Shown here: positions 10,288 through 55,547 of the stretch, one piece after another
Layout of the letters: each line of letters opens with the position of its first letter
Position numbering within the stretch: the first letter of the stretch is position 1
Position numbers and translations under genes: made by a program
Assembly: GCA_020831525.1 (NCBI GenBank)
Contig: JAFIGH010000023.1
Location: 1-56,674 of the forward strand
Length of the DNA stretch: 56,674 nt
Direction of reading: 5' to 3'
Source of the DNA: Opitutales bacterium
Lineage (GTDB): Bacteria; Verrucomicrobiota; Verrucomicrobiia; Opitutales; Oceanipulchritudinaceae
The notes under the pieces: model-generated
What the model saw: only the letters and a program-made list of their open reading frames with translations
What the model was told of the DNA's origin: nothing
The model's database searches: none

Positions 10288-10456
10288 AGCGGTCCTCCGT
10301 ATGGAATTCGTCCGGGGCTGACGACGCATAAACAATATATACTCCCCCTCGAATACGCAAACGCGAAGGCAGCGGATGCAGAAATCCAGATTTTTTCGGT
10401 CCGCCGCCGTACTTTCCCGTTGGCGCGGCACACAATCCGCTATAACACGGCTGGAA
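10288..10456. promoter_or_regulatory. Divergent promoter region, serpin / GAF histidine kinase
   Basis: This 169-bp stretch separates the divergent serpin and kinase genes. An AT-rich tract at about 10333-10343 (caatatatact) stands out from the GC-rich surroundings. On the minus strand it offers TATATT as a -10 with a poor TTGCGT-like -35 about 15 bases upstream. I see no clear operator. The kinase gene could also start upstream at 10376, which would put part of the coding region here. Confidence 0.35.
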
Positions 10457-12199
10457 ATGGATGCGGGAAATAACGAAGACCGGCTTGTGGTGGACTCACT
10501 CTACCGCATCAGCAGCCTGGTGAGCGACACGGAGGATCCGCGCGAGGCGCTCGAGATCATCATCGACGAGATCATGCGCATCCTGCCCGCGCAGAGTGCC
10601 GCCATCGAGCTACTCAACCCCGACACCAACTTACTGGAGATCGAGGTGTTCCGCGGTTTCCCCGACCACTCGAAGGAGATGCAACTGCGCCTCGGCCAGG
10701 GCGTGACCGGATGGGTGGCGCTGCACGGGCGCTCCCTCGTGGTCCCCGACGTGTCGAAAGACCCGCGCTACATCCCGGTGAAGCCCGAAATCCGCTCAGA
10801 GATGGCCGTGCCCATGATCGGCGGCGCGGGCAACATCGCGGGGGTCGTCAACGTCGACAGCGAAAAGGCCGATGCCTTCTCGGAGAACGACCTCAAAGCC
10901 CTCACGCTTCTCACCAACGAGGCGAGCCGCGTCGTAAACCGCATTTGGCTCATCCAGAAGCTCAAGGAAAAGGCAGACCAACTCGAGTCACTCATCAAGA
11001 CAGCCCAATCCATCGTAAAAAAGCGGGAAGTGGACAAACTGCTCAGCAGCATCACGGAAGAAGCCCGCGCCCTTATGCGCTGCCGTCTCTGCGCTGTCTT
11101 TCTACTCGACGACAACGAGGAACGCATCGTCCTCCGCGCGCTCGCGGGGGCGCCGCTCGACGAAAACCGCGAGCAACTCGAGCTTACCGAGAGCGCCATC
11201 GGCACGGTGATCCAGCGCAACAAGATCATCGAGGTGCACGACCTGCCGCGTACGGAGGAGCACCACTTCGTGCGTCTCACCCAACGCGAAAACCTCGTTT
11301 CCATGCTCTCCTGCCCGGTCGTCTACGAAAATAAAGTCATTGGTGTGCTGAACGCCTACACCGACCGCCACCACCGCTTCAACAACGAGGAACGCCGCAT
11401 TTTCCAGACCATCGCCGGACTCGGGGCCGTTGCCATCCAAAACGCGCGCCTCTACAGTCGCATATTCAAGACAGAGGAAACGCTGCGCCAAAACGAACGC
11501 CTCACTACCCTCGGTCTCCTCTCCGCCGAGATCGCGCATGAAATCCGCAACCCCCTCACCGTTATCCGCCTCCTCTTCGAAAGCCTCGGGCTCGATTTCG
11601 CGGCGGACGACATGCGCGCGAAAGACGTCGCAATCATCGGTGAAAAGCTCGACCAACTGGAAGGCATCGTCTCGCGCGTCCTCAGCTTCGGAAAGTCGCG
11701 CGAGGACATGCGCATGCGCTGCGACCTGCGCTCTCTCGTGGAAGACACCTTTCACCTCGTCCGCCTCAAACTCCAGCAGAGCCGAATCGACCTCACTGTG
11801 GACATTCCGCCGGACCGCGCCTTTACCGTCGAGGTGAGCAAGGGCCAGATCCAGCAGGCGATCCTCAACCTCATTATCAATGCCATGCAGGCTATGCCGG
11901 ACGGCGGGCGCATCGAGGCCGGGCTCGAGGCCACCGGCGGTTCCGCCCCCGCCGCCGTGCTCTCCCTGCGCGACACCGGCCCGGGCATTCCCGAGGAGAT
12001 GCGCGGCAAAATCTTCGACTCGTTCCTCACGGGCCGCGGCAAAGGCACGGGGCTCGGGCTCGCCATCGTCAAACGCATCCTCAAGAGTCACGGCGGCGAC
12101 ATCGAAGTGGGTGAGAGCGGTCCGGGCGGCACTCTTATGCTTGTGCGCGTGCCCCTTGCCGCCGACGGGCACGGCTTTCCGGCCCCCAATGGCAGTTGA
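10457..12199 (+). CDS. Soluble sensor histidine kinase with two GAF domains
   Basis: This encodes 580 residues from ATG 10457; an in-frame start at 10376 would add 27 residues of unlikely composition. GAF 1 spans ~25-165, with LGQGVTGWVALHGRSLVVPD. GAF 2 spans ~190-335, with SMLSCPVVYENKVIGVLNAY. HisKA holds the phosphoacceptor His361 in AEIAHEIRNPLTVI. The HATPase domain has N-box NLIINAMQAM, G1 DTGPGIP and G2 GRGKGTGLGLAIV. There are no membrane segments, so the signal is intracellular. No response regulator is adjacent. It stands 31 bp before hemH, and co-transcription with the haem genes is possible. The first GAF lacks an obvious haem- or tetrapyrrole-binding Cys, so I cannot name the ligand. 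Confidence 0.9.
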   Translation: MDAGNNEDRLVVDSLYRISSLVSDTEDPREALEIIIDEIMRILPAQSAAIELLNPDTNLLEIEVFRGFPDHSKEMQLRLGQGVTGWVALHGRSLVVPDVSKDPRYIPVKPEIRSEMAVPMIGGAGNIAGVVNVDSEKADAFSENDLKALTLLTNEASRVVNRIWLIQKLKEKADQLESLIKTAQSIVKKREVDKLLSSITEEARALMRCRLCAVFLLDDNEERIVLRALAGAPLDENREQLELTESAIGTVIQRNKIIEVHDLPRTEEHHFVRLTQRENLVSMLSCPVVYENKVIGVLNAYTDRHHRFNNEERRIFQTIAGLGAVAIQNARLYSRIFKTEETLRQNERLTTLGLLSAEIAHEIRNPLTVIRLLFESLGLDFAADDMRAKDVAIIGEKLDQLEGIVSRVLSFGKSREDMRMRCDLRSLVEDTFHLVRLKLQQSRIDLTVDIPPDRAFTVEVSKGQIQQAILNLIINAMQAMPDGGRIEAGLEATGGSAPAAVLSLRDTGPGIPEEMRGKIFDSFLTGRGKGTGLGLAIVKRILKSHGGDIEVGESGPGGTLMLVRVPLAADGHGFPAPNGS

Positions 12200-51761: not shown

Positions 51762-52185
51762 TCACGGATTAGTGACCGCGGCGGGAAACTCCGCCGGGGT
51801 GACGGCGGGTACCGGGGAAAGGCGGAAGTCCCTTTTGCTCCGCGTGACGATGTAACGGACCCGCGCTTTCAAAGCTGCGGCAACTTGCAGGGCATCTTCA
51901 AAATCGGAGAGCGGCAGCACGCGCGCTGTCCGGGCAGCCGAAGAATCCACCGGGCACACTTCAAAGACCTCGAGGATTTCGTCTACAAAAAGTTCTGCCT
52001 CCTCCTTCCCGGCAGTTTTCAAACCAATACAGTGAAGGTTGGCCAGCGTGTGCCAAGCAATCCATGCCCTTCCAAGGTGCCGTTCGCACCAGTCGAGCAC
52101 CGCCTGGCTCTCGTCAACATGCTCCGCCCGCTTAAGCAGCACAATCCAAGCCCGGCCCCGTTGACAATGGCGCAGGGCCGCGCAT
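51762..52185 (-). pseudogene. Decayed PIN-domain (VapC-like) gene, frameshifted near its 5' end
   Basis: An intact frame of 126 residues (GTG 52142 to 51762) covers most of a PIN domain: LLKRAEHVDESQAVLDWCER, then DFEDALQVAAALKARVRYIV (the conserved C-terminal acidic pair) and TPAEFPAAV. The first strand with the first catalytic Asp is missing. It can be found upstream in another frame: MRGPAPLSTGPGLD (ATG 52185) would give LSTGPGLD joined to VLLKR if one T is removed near 52143, matching the usual LDTNVVLDVLLKR; the first Asp is then replaced by Ser. So the gene has both a frameshift and a lost active-site residue. There is no antitoxin gene beside it. Confidence 0.55.
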
Positions 52186-52195
52186 CCTCCCGATT

Positions 52196-54064
52196 GTGGA
52201 CACGGAACTTAGCTTCGATCTGCTATTCCGGATGGCGAACGACGCCGTCTTCGTCGCGGATGCGGTAGACGGCACCCTCCTCGCCGCGAACGAACGCGCC
52301 GAGGAGTGGACGGGCCGCAGCGCGGCGGACCTGCGCGACATTCCATTCACCGACATGGTCGCCGTGCAGGACCGGGCATGGGTCGAGTCCGCCCTGAACG
52401 CCAATAGCGACGACGGGACATTCGGTTTTATCGATGTCTCTCTCCAGCGCGCAGGCACCGCGCCCCTGCCCTGCGAACTGACTGCCCGCGCCGCATCCGC
52501 CGAAGGTCGGCGCGTGCACGTGATCGTCCTTCGCGACATCTCCGAGCGCATGCGTGCGATGGAGGACATCAACCTCCGCAACGAAGCCATTGCCAGCGTA
52601 GCCTCGGGCGTGACTATCGCTGACGCCCGCCACCCCGACCTTCCCCTCATTTACGTCAACCGCGGATTCGAACGCATCACTGGCTATTCCGCCAAGGAAG
52701 CGGTCGGACGCAGTTGCCGGTTCCTCCAGGCACACGACCGCGACCAGGACCAGCTCGACGTCCTGCGAAAAGCCCTGCGCGAAGGTGAGCCGTGCAATGT
52801 GCGCCTGCGCAACTACCGCAAGGACGGCTCCCTCTTTTGGAACGAACTGCACATCTCGCCGGTGCGAACGGCCGAGGGCGAACTGACCCACTTTATCGGC
52901 ATCCAAATCGATGTGACCGACCGCGTCCTTGACCGCTCGCGCCTCGAGGCCTCGGAGCGCCGCTACCGTCTCCTCGCCGACAGTATCGACGACGTCATCC
53001 TCCGCTTCCTCCCGGACGGCATGATCGACTACGCCTCGCCCTCGTGCGAACGCCTCCTCGGCATCGCCCCCGCTGACATCACAGGCCGTTCGGTTGCCGC
53101 TCTCATCCGTGGCGGCGACGAAGTGGCGCTCAGCGCGCGGTGGCGTGGGATCATCGAATCCGGAGAGAGTGTCACAACAACCTTCGAAATGTACGGGCGG
53201 GACGTTCCATCGCTGTGGGTCGAAGCGACGGAATCCCCCCTGCCGCTCGAAAGTGAGGACGCTCCGGCCCAAATCATCGCCGTCGTCCGCGATGTCACTC
53301 CCCGCGTGCAGGCCGCCGAAGAAATGCGGCGCGCCCTCGACAAGGAAAAGCAACTCAACGAAATCAAGACCCGCTTCATCCGTATGGTGAGCCATGAATT
53401 CCGCACTCCGATGACCGGCATCCGGGCCTCCGCCAGCTTCCTCCGCGACTACGGCGCTTCCGTCACGCCCGAGAAGCGCGAGCGCCACTTCGTCAATATC
53501 GAGAATGCCCTCAAACGCATGAACGACATGCTCGACGACGTGCTGTTTGTCAGCCGGGGCGAAGCCGGCAAAGTGCCCTTCGACCCAAAGCCTGTCGACC
53601 TCGCCGCGTTTTGCGAAAGCCTTCTCGAAGAGCTGCGCACGATCCATGGTACCCACAGAATCCGGTTCTCCACAGACCTTCCGCCGGGCGGCACCTACCG
53701 GCTCGATACCGCCCTCCTCAACCACATCCTCCACAATCTCCTCTCCAATGCGATCAAGTACTCCCCGTCCAGCGAGCCCGCCCGCTTCCATGTCGAGAAG
53801 GAAGGTACCGCCTTGCGCCTAACCGTCGAAGACCGGGGCATCGGCATTCCGGAGGAGGATCACGCCGATCTCTTCGAACCCTTCCACCGCGCGGGCAACG
53901 TGGGCACGGTCAAGGGCACCGGGCTCGGACTCTACATCGCGAAACGCTCCGCGGAATTGCACTCCGGCACAATCCGCTTTAGCTCCACCTTGGGCGAAGG
54001 ATCGCGCTTTGAGGTGACGCTTCCCGCCGAGACACAAACCGATTCCCGATCCACCACGCCATGA
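52196..54064 (+). CDS. LOV-domain sensor histidine kinase (PAS-LOV-PAS-HisKA-HATPase)
   Basis: This encodes 622 residues from a GTG at 52196, no membrane segments. PAS 1 covers ~5-118. Residues ~130-245 are a LOV domain: GRSCRFLQ with the photoactive Cys174, Arg175 and Gln178; NYRKDGSLFWN with the flavin-contacting Asn206 and Asn216; and FIGIQIDVTDR with the signalling Gln237. All residues needed for flavin photochemistry are present. PAS 3 covers ~252-370. HisKA has His400 in MVSHEFRTPMTGIR. HATPase: N-box LLSNAIKYS, G1 EDRGIGIP, G2 GTVKGTGLGLYI. So a soluble blue-light-responsive kinase. It overlaps its response regulator gene by four bases. Confidence 0.92.
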   Translation: MDTELSFDLLFRMANDAVFVADAVDGTLLAANERAEEWTGRSAADLRDIPFTDMVAVQDRAWVESALNANSDDGTFGFIDVSLQRAGTAPLPCELTARAASAEGRRVHVIVLRDISERMRAMEDINLRNEAIASVASGVTIADARHPDLPLIYVNRGFERITGYSAKEAVGRSCRFLQAHDRDQDQLDVLRKALREGEPCNVRLRNYRKDGSLFWNELHISPVRTAEGELTHFIGIQIDVTDRVLDRSRLEASERRYRLLADSIDDVILRFLPDGMIDYASPSCERLLGIAPADITGRSVAALIRGGDEVALSARWRGIIESGESVTTTFEMYGRDVPSLWVEATESPLPLESEDAPAQIIAVVRDVTPRVQAAEEMRRALDKEKQLNEIKTRFIRMVSHEFRTPMTGIRASASFLRDYGASVTPEKRERHFVNIENALKRMNDMLDDVLFVSRGEAGKVPFDPKPVDLAAFCESLLEELRTIHGTHRIRFSTDLPPGGTYRLDTALLNHILHNLLSNAIKYSPSSEPARFHVEKEGTALRLTVEDRGIGIPEEDHADLFEPFHRAGNVGTVKGTGLGLYIAKRSAELHSGTIRFSSTLGEGSRFEVTLPAETQTDSRSTTP

Positions 54065-54798
54065 CGAACATCCTTGTTATCGAAGACGACGAACAGGTCC
54101 GCCTTCCCCTCGTCGACCTCCTCGAAGCCAACGGTTTTTCCGTGGAAACGGCCGAAAACGGGCGCGCCGGCATCGAAGCCGCCCGCAAGAGCACGCCGGA
54201 CCTCATCGTCTGCGACATCATGATGCCCGAGGTCGACGGCTACGGCGTTTTCGAAGCCCTCCAGGCCGATCCCTCCACCGCCGTCGTGCCCTTCCTTTTC
54301 CTCTCCGCAAAGACGGACCCGGCGGATATCCGCGAGGGACTCGGCCTCGGTGCCGACGACTACCTCACCAAGCCGTTCCAGCCCCGCGACCTGCTCGACG
54401 CCATCCGCACACGACTGGAGAGATATGAGCGTATTTCCAATGCCGCCACGACGATCAACGAGGAAAACGAATACGACCAGATCTTCATCAAGGACGGCGA
54501 CAGTTGCTGGTTCGTGGAATACGAGAAACTCCGCCTCCTCGAGAGCGAGGACAATTACGTGCGCTTCTTCTTCGACAACGAAAAACCTCTTATCAGCCGT
54601 ACGCTCAACTACATGGAACAGCGCCTGCCCGCCCGCCTCTTCTTCCGCGCCAACCGCAAACAAATGATCAACCTCAAGTGGATCAAAAACATCCAGCCGT
54701 GGTTCAACGGCGGTTTGCTCGTCACCCTCAAAGACGGCGAAAAAGTGCAGATGTCCCGCCGCGCCGCCCAGACCTTCAAGTCGAAGATGGGGATCTGA
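54061..54798 (+). CDS. LytTR-type response regulator (REC + LytTR)
   Basis: This encodes 245 residues. REC domain 1-~120: acidic pair Asp9/Asp10, phosphoacceptor Asp52 in LIVCDIMMPEVDG, Lys104 in YLTKPF. The C-terminal LytTR domain (~145-245) has LRLLESEDNYVRFFF, LPARLFFRANRKQMINL and the LKDGEKVQMSRR strand. LytTR proteins bind tandem 9-12-bp sites to activate transcription. The 4-bp overlap with the LOV kinase marks it as the cognate partner. The regulated genes are not evident; the next gene on the strand is the GbsR-like regulator 225 bp later. Confidence 0.94.
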   Translation: MTNILVIEDDEQVRLPLVDLLEANGFSVETAENGRAGIEAARKSTPDLIVCDIMMPEVDGYGVFEALQADPSTAVVPFLFLSAKTDPADIREGLGLGADDYLTKPFQPRDLLDAIRTRLERYERISNAATTINEENEYDQIFIKDGDSCWFVEYEKLRLLESEDNYVRFFFDNEKPLISRTLNYMEQRLPARLFFRANRKQMINLKWIKNIQPWFNGGLLVTLKDGEKVQMSRRAAQTFKSKMGI

Positions 54799-54936
54799 AG
54801 GGGCGCCCCGTGGCTCCGGAGCTTGCTCCGGCCCGCCGGTGCCAACGGATCCATCCGCGGCTCTTTTCCGCCGCAGGCGCGGGCAAACCCGCACGCCCAC
54901 GATTCGCCCCCGTGGCGTCGGAGCTTGCTCCGGCCC
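54799..54936. repeat. Two REP-like GGAGC-TT-GCTCC hairpin repeats
   Basis: 27-bp copies at 54808-54834 and 54910-54936 (CCGTGG then CGGAGCTTGCTCCGGCCC) are in the same orientation, 102 bp apart, with 2 mismatches. Each contains the 12-bp palindrome GGAGCTTGCTCC, extended by CC/GG, that forms a short hairpin. The arrangement resembles REP doublets of the kind acted on by RAYT proteins such as the one at the left edge, but that pairing is inference. Confidence 0.6.
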
Positions 54937-55022: not shown

Positions 55023-55547
55023 ATGAATCTTCATCCCACAGCGCAAAAGTTCATTGTCCACTGGGGCGAGATGGGCACGCGCTGGGGCATCAATCGATCC
55101 GTGGCGCAGATCCACGCGCTGTTGTACCTCTCGCCGGAACCGCTCGCCGCCGACGAGATCGTGGAAACCCTTGCCATTGCGCGGTCGAACGTGAGCACCG
55201 GTCTTCGCGAGTTGCAGACATGGGGTCTTGTGCGCGCGACCCAGGTGCTCGGCGACCGGCGCGACCGGTTTTCCACCGCCACCGACGTCTGGGAACTCTT
55301 TCGGGTGATTCTGCGCGAGCGCAAGCGGCGCGAACTCGATCCCACGCTGGCCGTCCTGCGCGAATGCGTGGCCGAGGCCAAAGCCGCCCCCGCCCCTGCG
55401 CTTCCCCATCTCGACAAGCGTCTCGGCGCGATGCTCGAATACATGGAACTGGCCGACTCATGGGGCGAGCGCGCGGCCCGCCTCGAGCCCGCCAAGCTCC
55501 GCCGCCTCGCCAAACTCGGCGACTCCATCTTCAAGCTCGCAGAGTAA
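55023..55547 (+). CDS. GbsR/MarR-family transcriptional regulator
   Basis: This encodes 174 residues. It is a winged-helix protein of the GbsR type: start HPTAQKFIVHWGEMGTRWGI, HTH at ~28-80 (SPEPLAADEIVETLAIARSN, VSTGLRELQTWGLVR), wing DRRDRFSTATDVWELFR, then two C-terminal dimerisation helices. GbsR-like proteins in this phylum often precede small ORFs and epimerase genes and their ligand is unknown. An inverted repeat directly upstream and a similar one downstream suggest autoregulation and control of the following genes. Confidence 0.87.
   Translation: MNLHPTAQKFIVHWGEMGTRWGINRSVAQIHALLYLSPEPLAADEIVETLAIARSNVSTGLRELQTWGLVRATQVLGDRRDRFSTATDVWELFRVILRERKRRELDPTLAVLRECVAEAKAAPAPALPHLDKRLGAMLEYMELADSWGERAARLEPAKLRRLAKLGDSIFKLAE

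Follow-up and report, generated by a model that had tools for sequence, protein, structure and literature searches.

A predicted blue-light two-component system in an Opitutales family: a LOV-HisKA kinase adjoining a mosaic LytTR response regulator

The contig JAFIGH010000023.1 of an Opitutales bacterium (assembly GCA_020831525.1, family Oceanipulchritudinaceae), analysed here over its whole length of 56,674 nucleotides (nt) and called the window below, carries two overlapping genes, the first of which codes for a sensor histidine kinase with a LOV domain and the second for a response regulator combining a receiver with a LytTR DNA-binding domain. An earlier note, made from the letters of the window alone, had proposed that a LOV blue-light kinase is paired here with a LytTR regulator, and sequence comparison, fold prediction and conservation support this proposal. 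The domains, the key residues, the pairing, the conservation and the mosaic make-up of the regulator are read directly from the sequence, and on this basis the two genes likely constitute a dedicated blue-light two-component system, a real and conserved one that probably functions. The parts are known; what is new is their combination, the mosaic make-up of the regulator, the conservation of the pair in the family, linkers spaced by heptads and residues expected to accelerate the photocycle.

In the kinase, Pfam profiles delimit three PAS stretches followed by HisKA (residues 391-458) and HATPase_c (residues 504-612). Together with direct reading they agree with the PAS-LOV-PAS kinase bearing Cys174, Asn206, Asn216 and Gln237 described in the earlier note. 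His400, Glu401 and Thr404 were read in the same way, and all seven residues are unchanged across 11 aligned kinases of the family. Asn206 and Asn216 we take to be the flavin-contacting residues, and Gln237 the signalling one. The features of a HisKA kinase, i.e. the phosphoacceptor His and a HATPase_c domain with N and G boxes, were found both by Pfam and by eye. Nothing resembling a transmembrane stretch was detected in the kinase, its top 19-residue Kyte-Doolittle mean being 1.08.

The photosensory part was examined by alignment with solved LOV domains, a check suggested in the earlier note, and Cys174 came to lie at the adduct position, within the CRFLQ motif and with no gap, in the three alignments displayed (9vf7, expectation value (E) 9e-37; 7r5n, 5e-36; 6hmj, 7.3e-36). 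The misplaced Cys174 that the earlier note named as a refutation was thus not encountered. An AlphaFold model of this domain has a predicted local distance difference test score (pLDDT) of 82.8, and all 50 Foldseek matches listed represent either LOV proteins or constructs derived from them, the top ones with 47-51% identity and the first ten with a TM-score of 0.87-0.89 over the query. The kinase misses the cut-offs of two NCBIfam models: NF052306 (blue-light-activated histidine kinase; 126.8 versus 450 bits), whose match is confined to the LOV part, and NF052652 (YtvA family; 161 versus 250 bits).

In the regulator, Pfam registers Response_reg (PF00072) at residues 4-116 and then LytTR (PF04397) at residues 150-243, and comparisons were made for each half on its own. 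Identity of the LytTR half to its top matches is 55-59%, with a median of 57% over the 24 nearest LytTR regulators, which were picked by similarity to the window regulator and belong to the same order (22) or the same class (2). Among the domains compared it is closest to LytTRs of regulators standing beside LytS-type kinases: an NPHF-motif kinase is present in 23 of these 24 loci, and one (L166) was confirmed as PF06580. The receivers of the same regulators are 34% identical to the window receiver in the median. LytS/LytR-type pairs of the same class (PF06580 kinase with LytTR regulator) resemble the window pair in their output, but differ from it in the receiver and in the kinase, which here is of the HisKA type and carries LOV.

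For the receiver half, loci were collected in named genomes by means of two peptide patterns, one for the receiver and one for LytTR, and ranked by similarity to the window regulator. In the best 80 of at least 588 such loci the receivers are up to 60% identical to that of the window (median 53%), and the kinase motif is HisKA in 71, NPHF in one (L122) and neither in eight, with a LOV motif in two. Pfam was applied to five regulators of this set. A cyclic-nucleotide-like domain was found in four, namely in L077, L083 and L119 together with a Crp helix-turn-helix and in L090, which is cut by a contig end, while L073 has LytTR. Among the matches listed, the closest receivers are those of HisKA kinase and REC-cNMP-Crp pairs, chiefly from Bacteroidota, which differ from the window pair in their output, cyclic-nucleotide-like in four of the five regulators checked and LytTR here. 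A tree of 59 receivers separated the LytS and HisKA classes with a support of 100/100 and placed the window clade on the HisKA side, i.e. outside the LytS-partnered class. The AlphaFold model of the regulator was of low confidence (pLDDT 70, predicted TM-score 0.47) and was set aside as evidence.

Judged by these comparisons, the regulator is a natural mosaic of a LytS-type LytTR output and a HisKA-type receiver. Since its LytTR half resembles LytS-partnered regulators and its receiver half HisKA-partnered receivers, one can assume a receiver swap beneath the LytTR domain, which apparently put the LytTR output under blue light; this is the order of events that we infer. Two loci from Flavobacteriaceae (L083 and L119) combine a LOV-HisKA kinase with a following REC-cNMP-Crp regulator, another uncommon blue-light output. 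Consequently, LOV kinases with this class of receivers adjoin at least two kinds of output.

The distribution of the pair was followed in 372 sampled genomes of the order. At E of 1e-60 or better the regulator was registered in 12 of them, namely in 11 of the 17 genomes of the window's family and in G427, which belongs to another family; LOV at E of 1e-35 or better marks the same 11 family genomes. In G427 the LOV kinase (LOV 75% identical) directly adjoins the regulator (72% identical). In a phylum sample of 387 genomes scores above 500 bits were confined to its three family members, the next best being 184. Identity to the window copy is 73-97% for the regulator and 46-85% for the kinase (some rows are truncated), so that the regulator is the more conserved partner. 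It contains the only LytTR domain found in the genome in eight of the 11 family carriers, including that of the window, and two LytTRs are present in G004, G008 and G011. G004 and G011 harbour an NPHF-kinase/LytTR pair (L033 and L038) in addition to the LOV pair, so that a single genome can contain pairs of both kinds.

The N-terminal and third PAS domains are variably absent (both in G004 and G011), whereas LOV with the Cys of CRFLQ is retained in 12 of 12 carriers, and flavin redox sensing would not need an adduct Cys. Both facts count against an explanation which we regard as distinctly unlikely, namely that LOV is mainly a redox/oxygen sensor or a light-independent structural input, with some other signal sensed through the PAS domains, although these domains do stand on both sides of LOV in the window kinase and some effects of bacterial LOV kinases, in Caulobacter (LovK-LovR) and Xanthomonas, are light-independent according to an excerpt of PMC4844311. 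Partnership with the adjacent regulator may be questioned as well. LovK-LovR of Caulobacter feeds the general stress pathway (same excerpt of PMC4844311), and the window kinase might likewise have its main target in a different regulator or in a stress network, leaving the neighbouring gene product as just one partner. This is very improbable, since LOV and the regulator mark one identical set of 11 among the 17 family genomes, and since the two genes adjoin each other, share a stop/start overlap in nine of the 12 carriers (G001 being counted by its kinase tail) and include a receiver of the HisKA-cognate type. The ATGA overlap reported for the window in the earlier note was confirmed in the sequence (Table 1); gaps of 14 and 15 nt were found in G004 and G011.

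A number of points weigh against the picture of a dedicated blue-light system with a mosaic regulator. The 25 non-LytS rows of the receiver tree were hand-chosen, the truncated receiver of G005 was omitted and not every HisKA-labelled row was checked; the tree itself has very long dividing branches, a bootstrap that is not fully settled and a midpoint root. Both comparison sets (80 loci and 24 regulators) share the selection by similarity to the window regulator. The LytTR half of L122, from Bacteroidota, is 51% identical to that of the window, yet its receiver falls on the LytS side. Fusion of a HisKA-type receiver to LytTR is not unique either: it also occurs in L073, L074 and L076 (two Bacteroidota and one unplaced bacterium) with LytTRs 25-37% identical to the window's, and L073 adjoins a HisKA kinase of 1175 residues. 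In the family, the pair is missing from six of the 17 genomes, four of which have other LytTRs and two (G003 and G014) none. G005, a draft 74% complete, contains interrupted copies of both genes (L066), which may reflect an assembly error or decay. In G001 the LOV part, running off its contig, and the regulator are on separate contigs (L063 and L064), and the regulator is preceded there by a kinase tail that shares only 79% identity with its counterpart on the other contig; these contigs may represent different strains or two copies. Finally, a LytTR operator pattern, searched across 13 genomes as one consensus with a 12-nt spacer only, gave nine matches versus 36 for the reversed control.

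If the system operates as its parts suggest, blue light would drive flavin mononucleotide bound in LOV to form an adduct with Cys174, and the signal helix, directly or via the third PAS domain, would pass the change to HisKA and alter the kinase/phosphatase balance at His400. From His400 the phosphoryl group would be transferred to Asp52 of the regulator, the product of the overlapping gene, and the LytTR domain of the phosphorylated regulator would bind target promoters in trans. Light could either raise or lower phosphorylation.

The linkers leading to the phosphoacceptor His proved to be regular in length. Where LOV is joined directly to HisKA, the conserved Asp/Asn at the LOV end is separated from the phosphoacceptor His by 34 (G004, G011), 41 (G007, G012) or 27 residues (G427), and in seven of seven kinases with the third PAS domain the end of this domain lies 34 residues from His. 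The values 27, 34 and 41 all equal 6 modulo 7, i.e. they are whole heptads apart, and the chance of two independent phase matches is estimated at about 1 in 49. Across the third PAS domain the distance from the LOV end to His is 161 residues in six kinases and 160 in G005. YF1, an engineered LOV-HisKA chimera (4gcz), is similarly built of LOV, a helical linker and HisKA, and its activity follows linker length by heptads: according to the excerpts of PMC6798134, variants with linkers of 7n residues are light-repressed and those of 7n+1 light-activated. The +1 register is described likewise in the excerpt of PMC11164954, and the former source reports the heptad rule for several natural families of photoreceptors. 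YF1 differs from the pair described here in being engineered, in using FixJ as its regulator and in its linker of 36 residues (hand count), from which the register here deviates by +5. A prediction of light polarity from linker length was dropped, since a +5 register is outside the classes given in these excerpts of PMC6798134 and PMC11164954. The linkers of 27, 34 and 41 residues form a natural series extending the heptad rule of the YF1 variants.

Kinetics of the photocycle can also be anticipated. Direct reading places Ser173 at -1 and Thr140 at -34 relative to Cys174, and by numbering these residues were equated with the N449S and V416T changes of AsLOV2, where N449 precedes C450 and V416 lies 34 before it. 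The adduct lifetime is 0.99 s in N449S (excerpt of PMC10751770), while V416T has 2.6 s versus 55 s (excerpt of PMC3867380). Since Ser173 and Thr140 correspond to changes that speed recovery in AsLOV2, a fast reversion of the adduct is predicted by analogy, though depending on context. By eye, the -34 position is Thr or Ser in 11 of 11 LOVs of the family and -1 is Ser in eight of 11; LOV of G427 has Thr at -34 and Asn at -1. From 19 LOV-like loci outside this set, L013 and L198 with an off-type motif and nine without a motif were set aside, and in each of the eight with intact C[RK]FLQ the -34 residue is Val, Ile or Leu and the -1 residue Asn. A LytTR motif was seen in none of the 19. Thr at -34 taken alone was rejected as a mark of fast cycling, because 6hmj likewise has Thr there.

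Taken a step further, the LytTR output may have been ancestrally controlled by a LytS-type kinase and moved by receiver swap to a LOV-HisKA kinase, and the whole LytTR output of eight of the 11 family carriers may now be a single light-controlled regulon governed by a fast-reverting photoreceptor. We put this forward tentatively, with somewhat less than even confidence.

Among known systems, Caulobacter LovK-LovR and Brucella LOV-HK are also blue-light LOV histidine kinases, the Brucella LOV being 38% identical in the fold search, but these are HWE/HisKA2 kinases working with single-domain or stress regulators. In Pseudomonas syringae a LytR-like regulator stands beside a kinase of type IC and not of the LytS-like type (excerpt of PMC2222644). 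In a 2014 survey Verrucomicrobia figure among the phyla plotted in a histogram for their LOV or BLUF proteins, as far as the excerpt of PMC4844311 goes. A description of a LOV kinase paired with a LytTR regulator was not found in the titles, abstract openings and excerpts (PMC4844311, PMC2222644 and PMC8396549) of the open-licence papers listed, which cannot show that none exists; the opinion of the earlier note that such pairing is little described is consistent with this literature and stands to that extent.

The beginning of the kinase gene (Table 1) was assigned from its upstream region. The TTGACA box is 29 nt from GTG in G000, 30 in G002, 31 in G001, 34 in G006 and 30 in G427; in G427 TATTCT may serve as the -10 element (by eye) and GTG immediately follows an in-frame stop. 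The GTG start is therefore supported by the box found 29-34 nt upstream in five of 12 carriers and by the stop codon of G427. Within 300 nt upstream of the assumed kinase start TTGACA is absent in seven of 12 carriers, some of those starts being uncertain. Because the -10 element sits about 17 nt past TTGACA, transcription would start at GTG or right next to it, and the kinase mRNA of the TTGACA-bearing subset is likely leaderless. As to autoregulation, apart from the TTGACA box of five of the 12 carriers, no shared repeat was seen in front of the kinase gene.

Table 1. Position of the LOV kinase and LytTR regulator genes and of their elements in the window
Feature	Coordinates	Strand	Basis
Putative promoter: TTGACA 52161-52166, 17 nt, weak -10 ATCCTC 52184-52189	52161..52189	+	-10 read by eye
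Soluble PAS-LOV-PAS HisKA sensor histidine kinase, 622 residues, GTG start	52196..54064	+	Pfam, family alignment
N-terminal PAS (about residues 10-115); missing from G004, G011	52223..52540	+	Pfam, family alignment
LOV domain (residues 130-245)	52583..52930	+	PDB matches, AlphaFold model, Foldseek
Cys174 codon, flavin-adduct residue, preceded by Ser173	52715..52717	+	PDB alignments, direct reading
Third PAS (about residues 255-370); missing from G004, G007, G011, G012, G427	52958..53305	+	Pfam, family alignment
HisKA dimerisation/phosphoacceptor domain; His400 codon 53393-53395, SHEFRTP	53366..53569	+	Pfam, direct reading
HATPase_c catalytic domain: NHILHNLLSNAIKYS, DRGIGIP, GTGLGLYIAK	53705..54031	+	Pfam, direct reading
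ATGA, 4 nt shared by kinase stop and regulator start	54061..54064	+	read from sequence
REC-LytTR response regulator, 245 residues	54061..54798	+	open reading frame and Pfam
Receiver, HisKA-cognate type; phosphoacceptor Asp52 codon 54214-54216	54070..54408	+	Pfam, alignment, receiver tree
LytTR DNA-binding domain	54508..54789	+	Pfam, half-by-half comparison

Between a transporter gene and the kinase the window has a divergent open reading frame with a PIN domain (PF13470; 51762-52142, minus strand). In G002 transporter-like sequence immediately precedes the kinase, implying that the PIN gene was inserted in the window genome or lost in G002. Past the end of the regulator gene the palindromic GGAGCTTGCTCCGG occurs twice, at 54818 and 54920, and resembles an intergenic repeat element. 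The two copies are followed on the plus strand by a MarR-like regulator with a weak CudC-like match (55023-55547) and by a gene of the NAD-dependent epimerase family cut by the contig end (55755-56674). This arrangement of MarR-like and epimerase genes was not recognised in the open reading frame lists of other carriers, though some of these lists stop shortly past the regulator. A second kinase of the window (10376-12199, plus strand) has GAF domains, HisKA and HATPase_c.

The genes flanking the pair differ among carriers and so suggest no target, a pattern to be expected if the system acts in trans. The idea of the earlier note that surface or glycan genes are under light control found no backing: neighbours vary between carriers, the operator pattern did not exceed its control, and the sole lead, a weak one, concerns a photolyase-like gene. 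That photorepair genes are the targets, notably a short photolyase-like gene with FAD_binding_7 only, seems unlikely to us, and the evidence is divided. Such genes, called from PF03441 matches that are weak (54-93 bits; only the copy of the window genome was inspected further and has FAD_binding_7 alone), are present in nine of 11 carriers versus none of six family non-carriers (Fisher p 0.002; 0.003 with G427 and G039 added; both values ignore kinship). Upstream of the gene three genus members have in common a block of about 50 bp, occurring once per genome (L228 about 1169-1249; G000 contig 25, 3349-3372), which contains ACCGTTCAC and, 20 bp on, ACCGCC, an arrangement faintly reminiscent of a LytTR repeat. 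However, chance alone would yield a half-site of this quality about 0.7 times per block of this kind (hand calculation), and the block was not found in 14 other genomes with up to three mismatches. Moreover, the short gene is missing from three carriers of the pair, G004, G011 and G427. In G427, whose genome is 97% complete, PF03441 matched nothing, and its congener G039 has two photolyases but neither LytTR nor a close LOV. For any photolyase the association is not significant (p 0.11, or 0.52 with G427 and G039 added). Thus, photorepair is a weak lead to the function of the pair. A carotenoid link was rejected: phytoene/squalene synthase was found in two of 17 family genomes, both of them carriers, and not in the window's own.

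If the dedicated blue-light system is as proposed, it links a well-understood light sensor to the LytTR class of DNA-binding domains, a pairing not found in the open-licence literature searched, and could serve as an optogenetic part with an uncommon class of promoters. The mosaic regulator would be a natural example of how a two-component output is rewired by receiver exchange. Since the window genome has a single LytTR protein, any light-dependent LytTR target in this bacterium would trace to the pair, which makes its light regulon directly testable.

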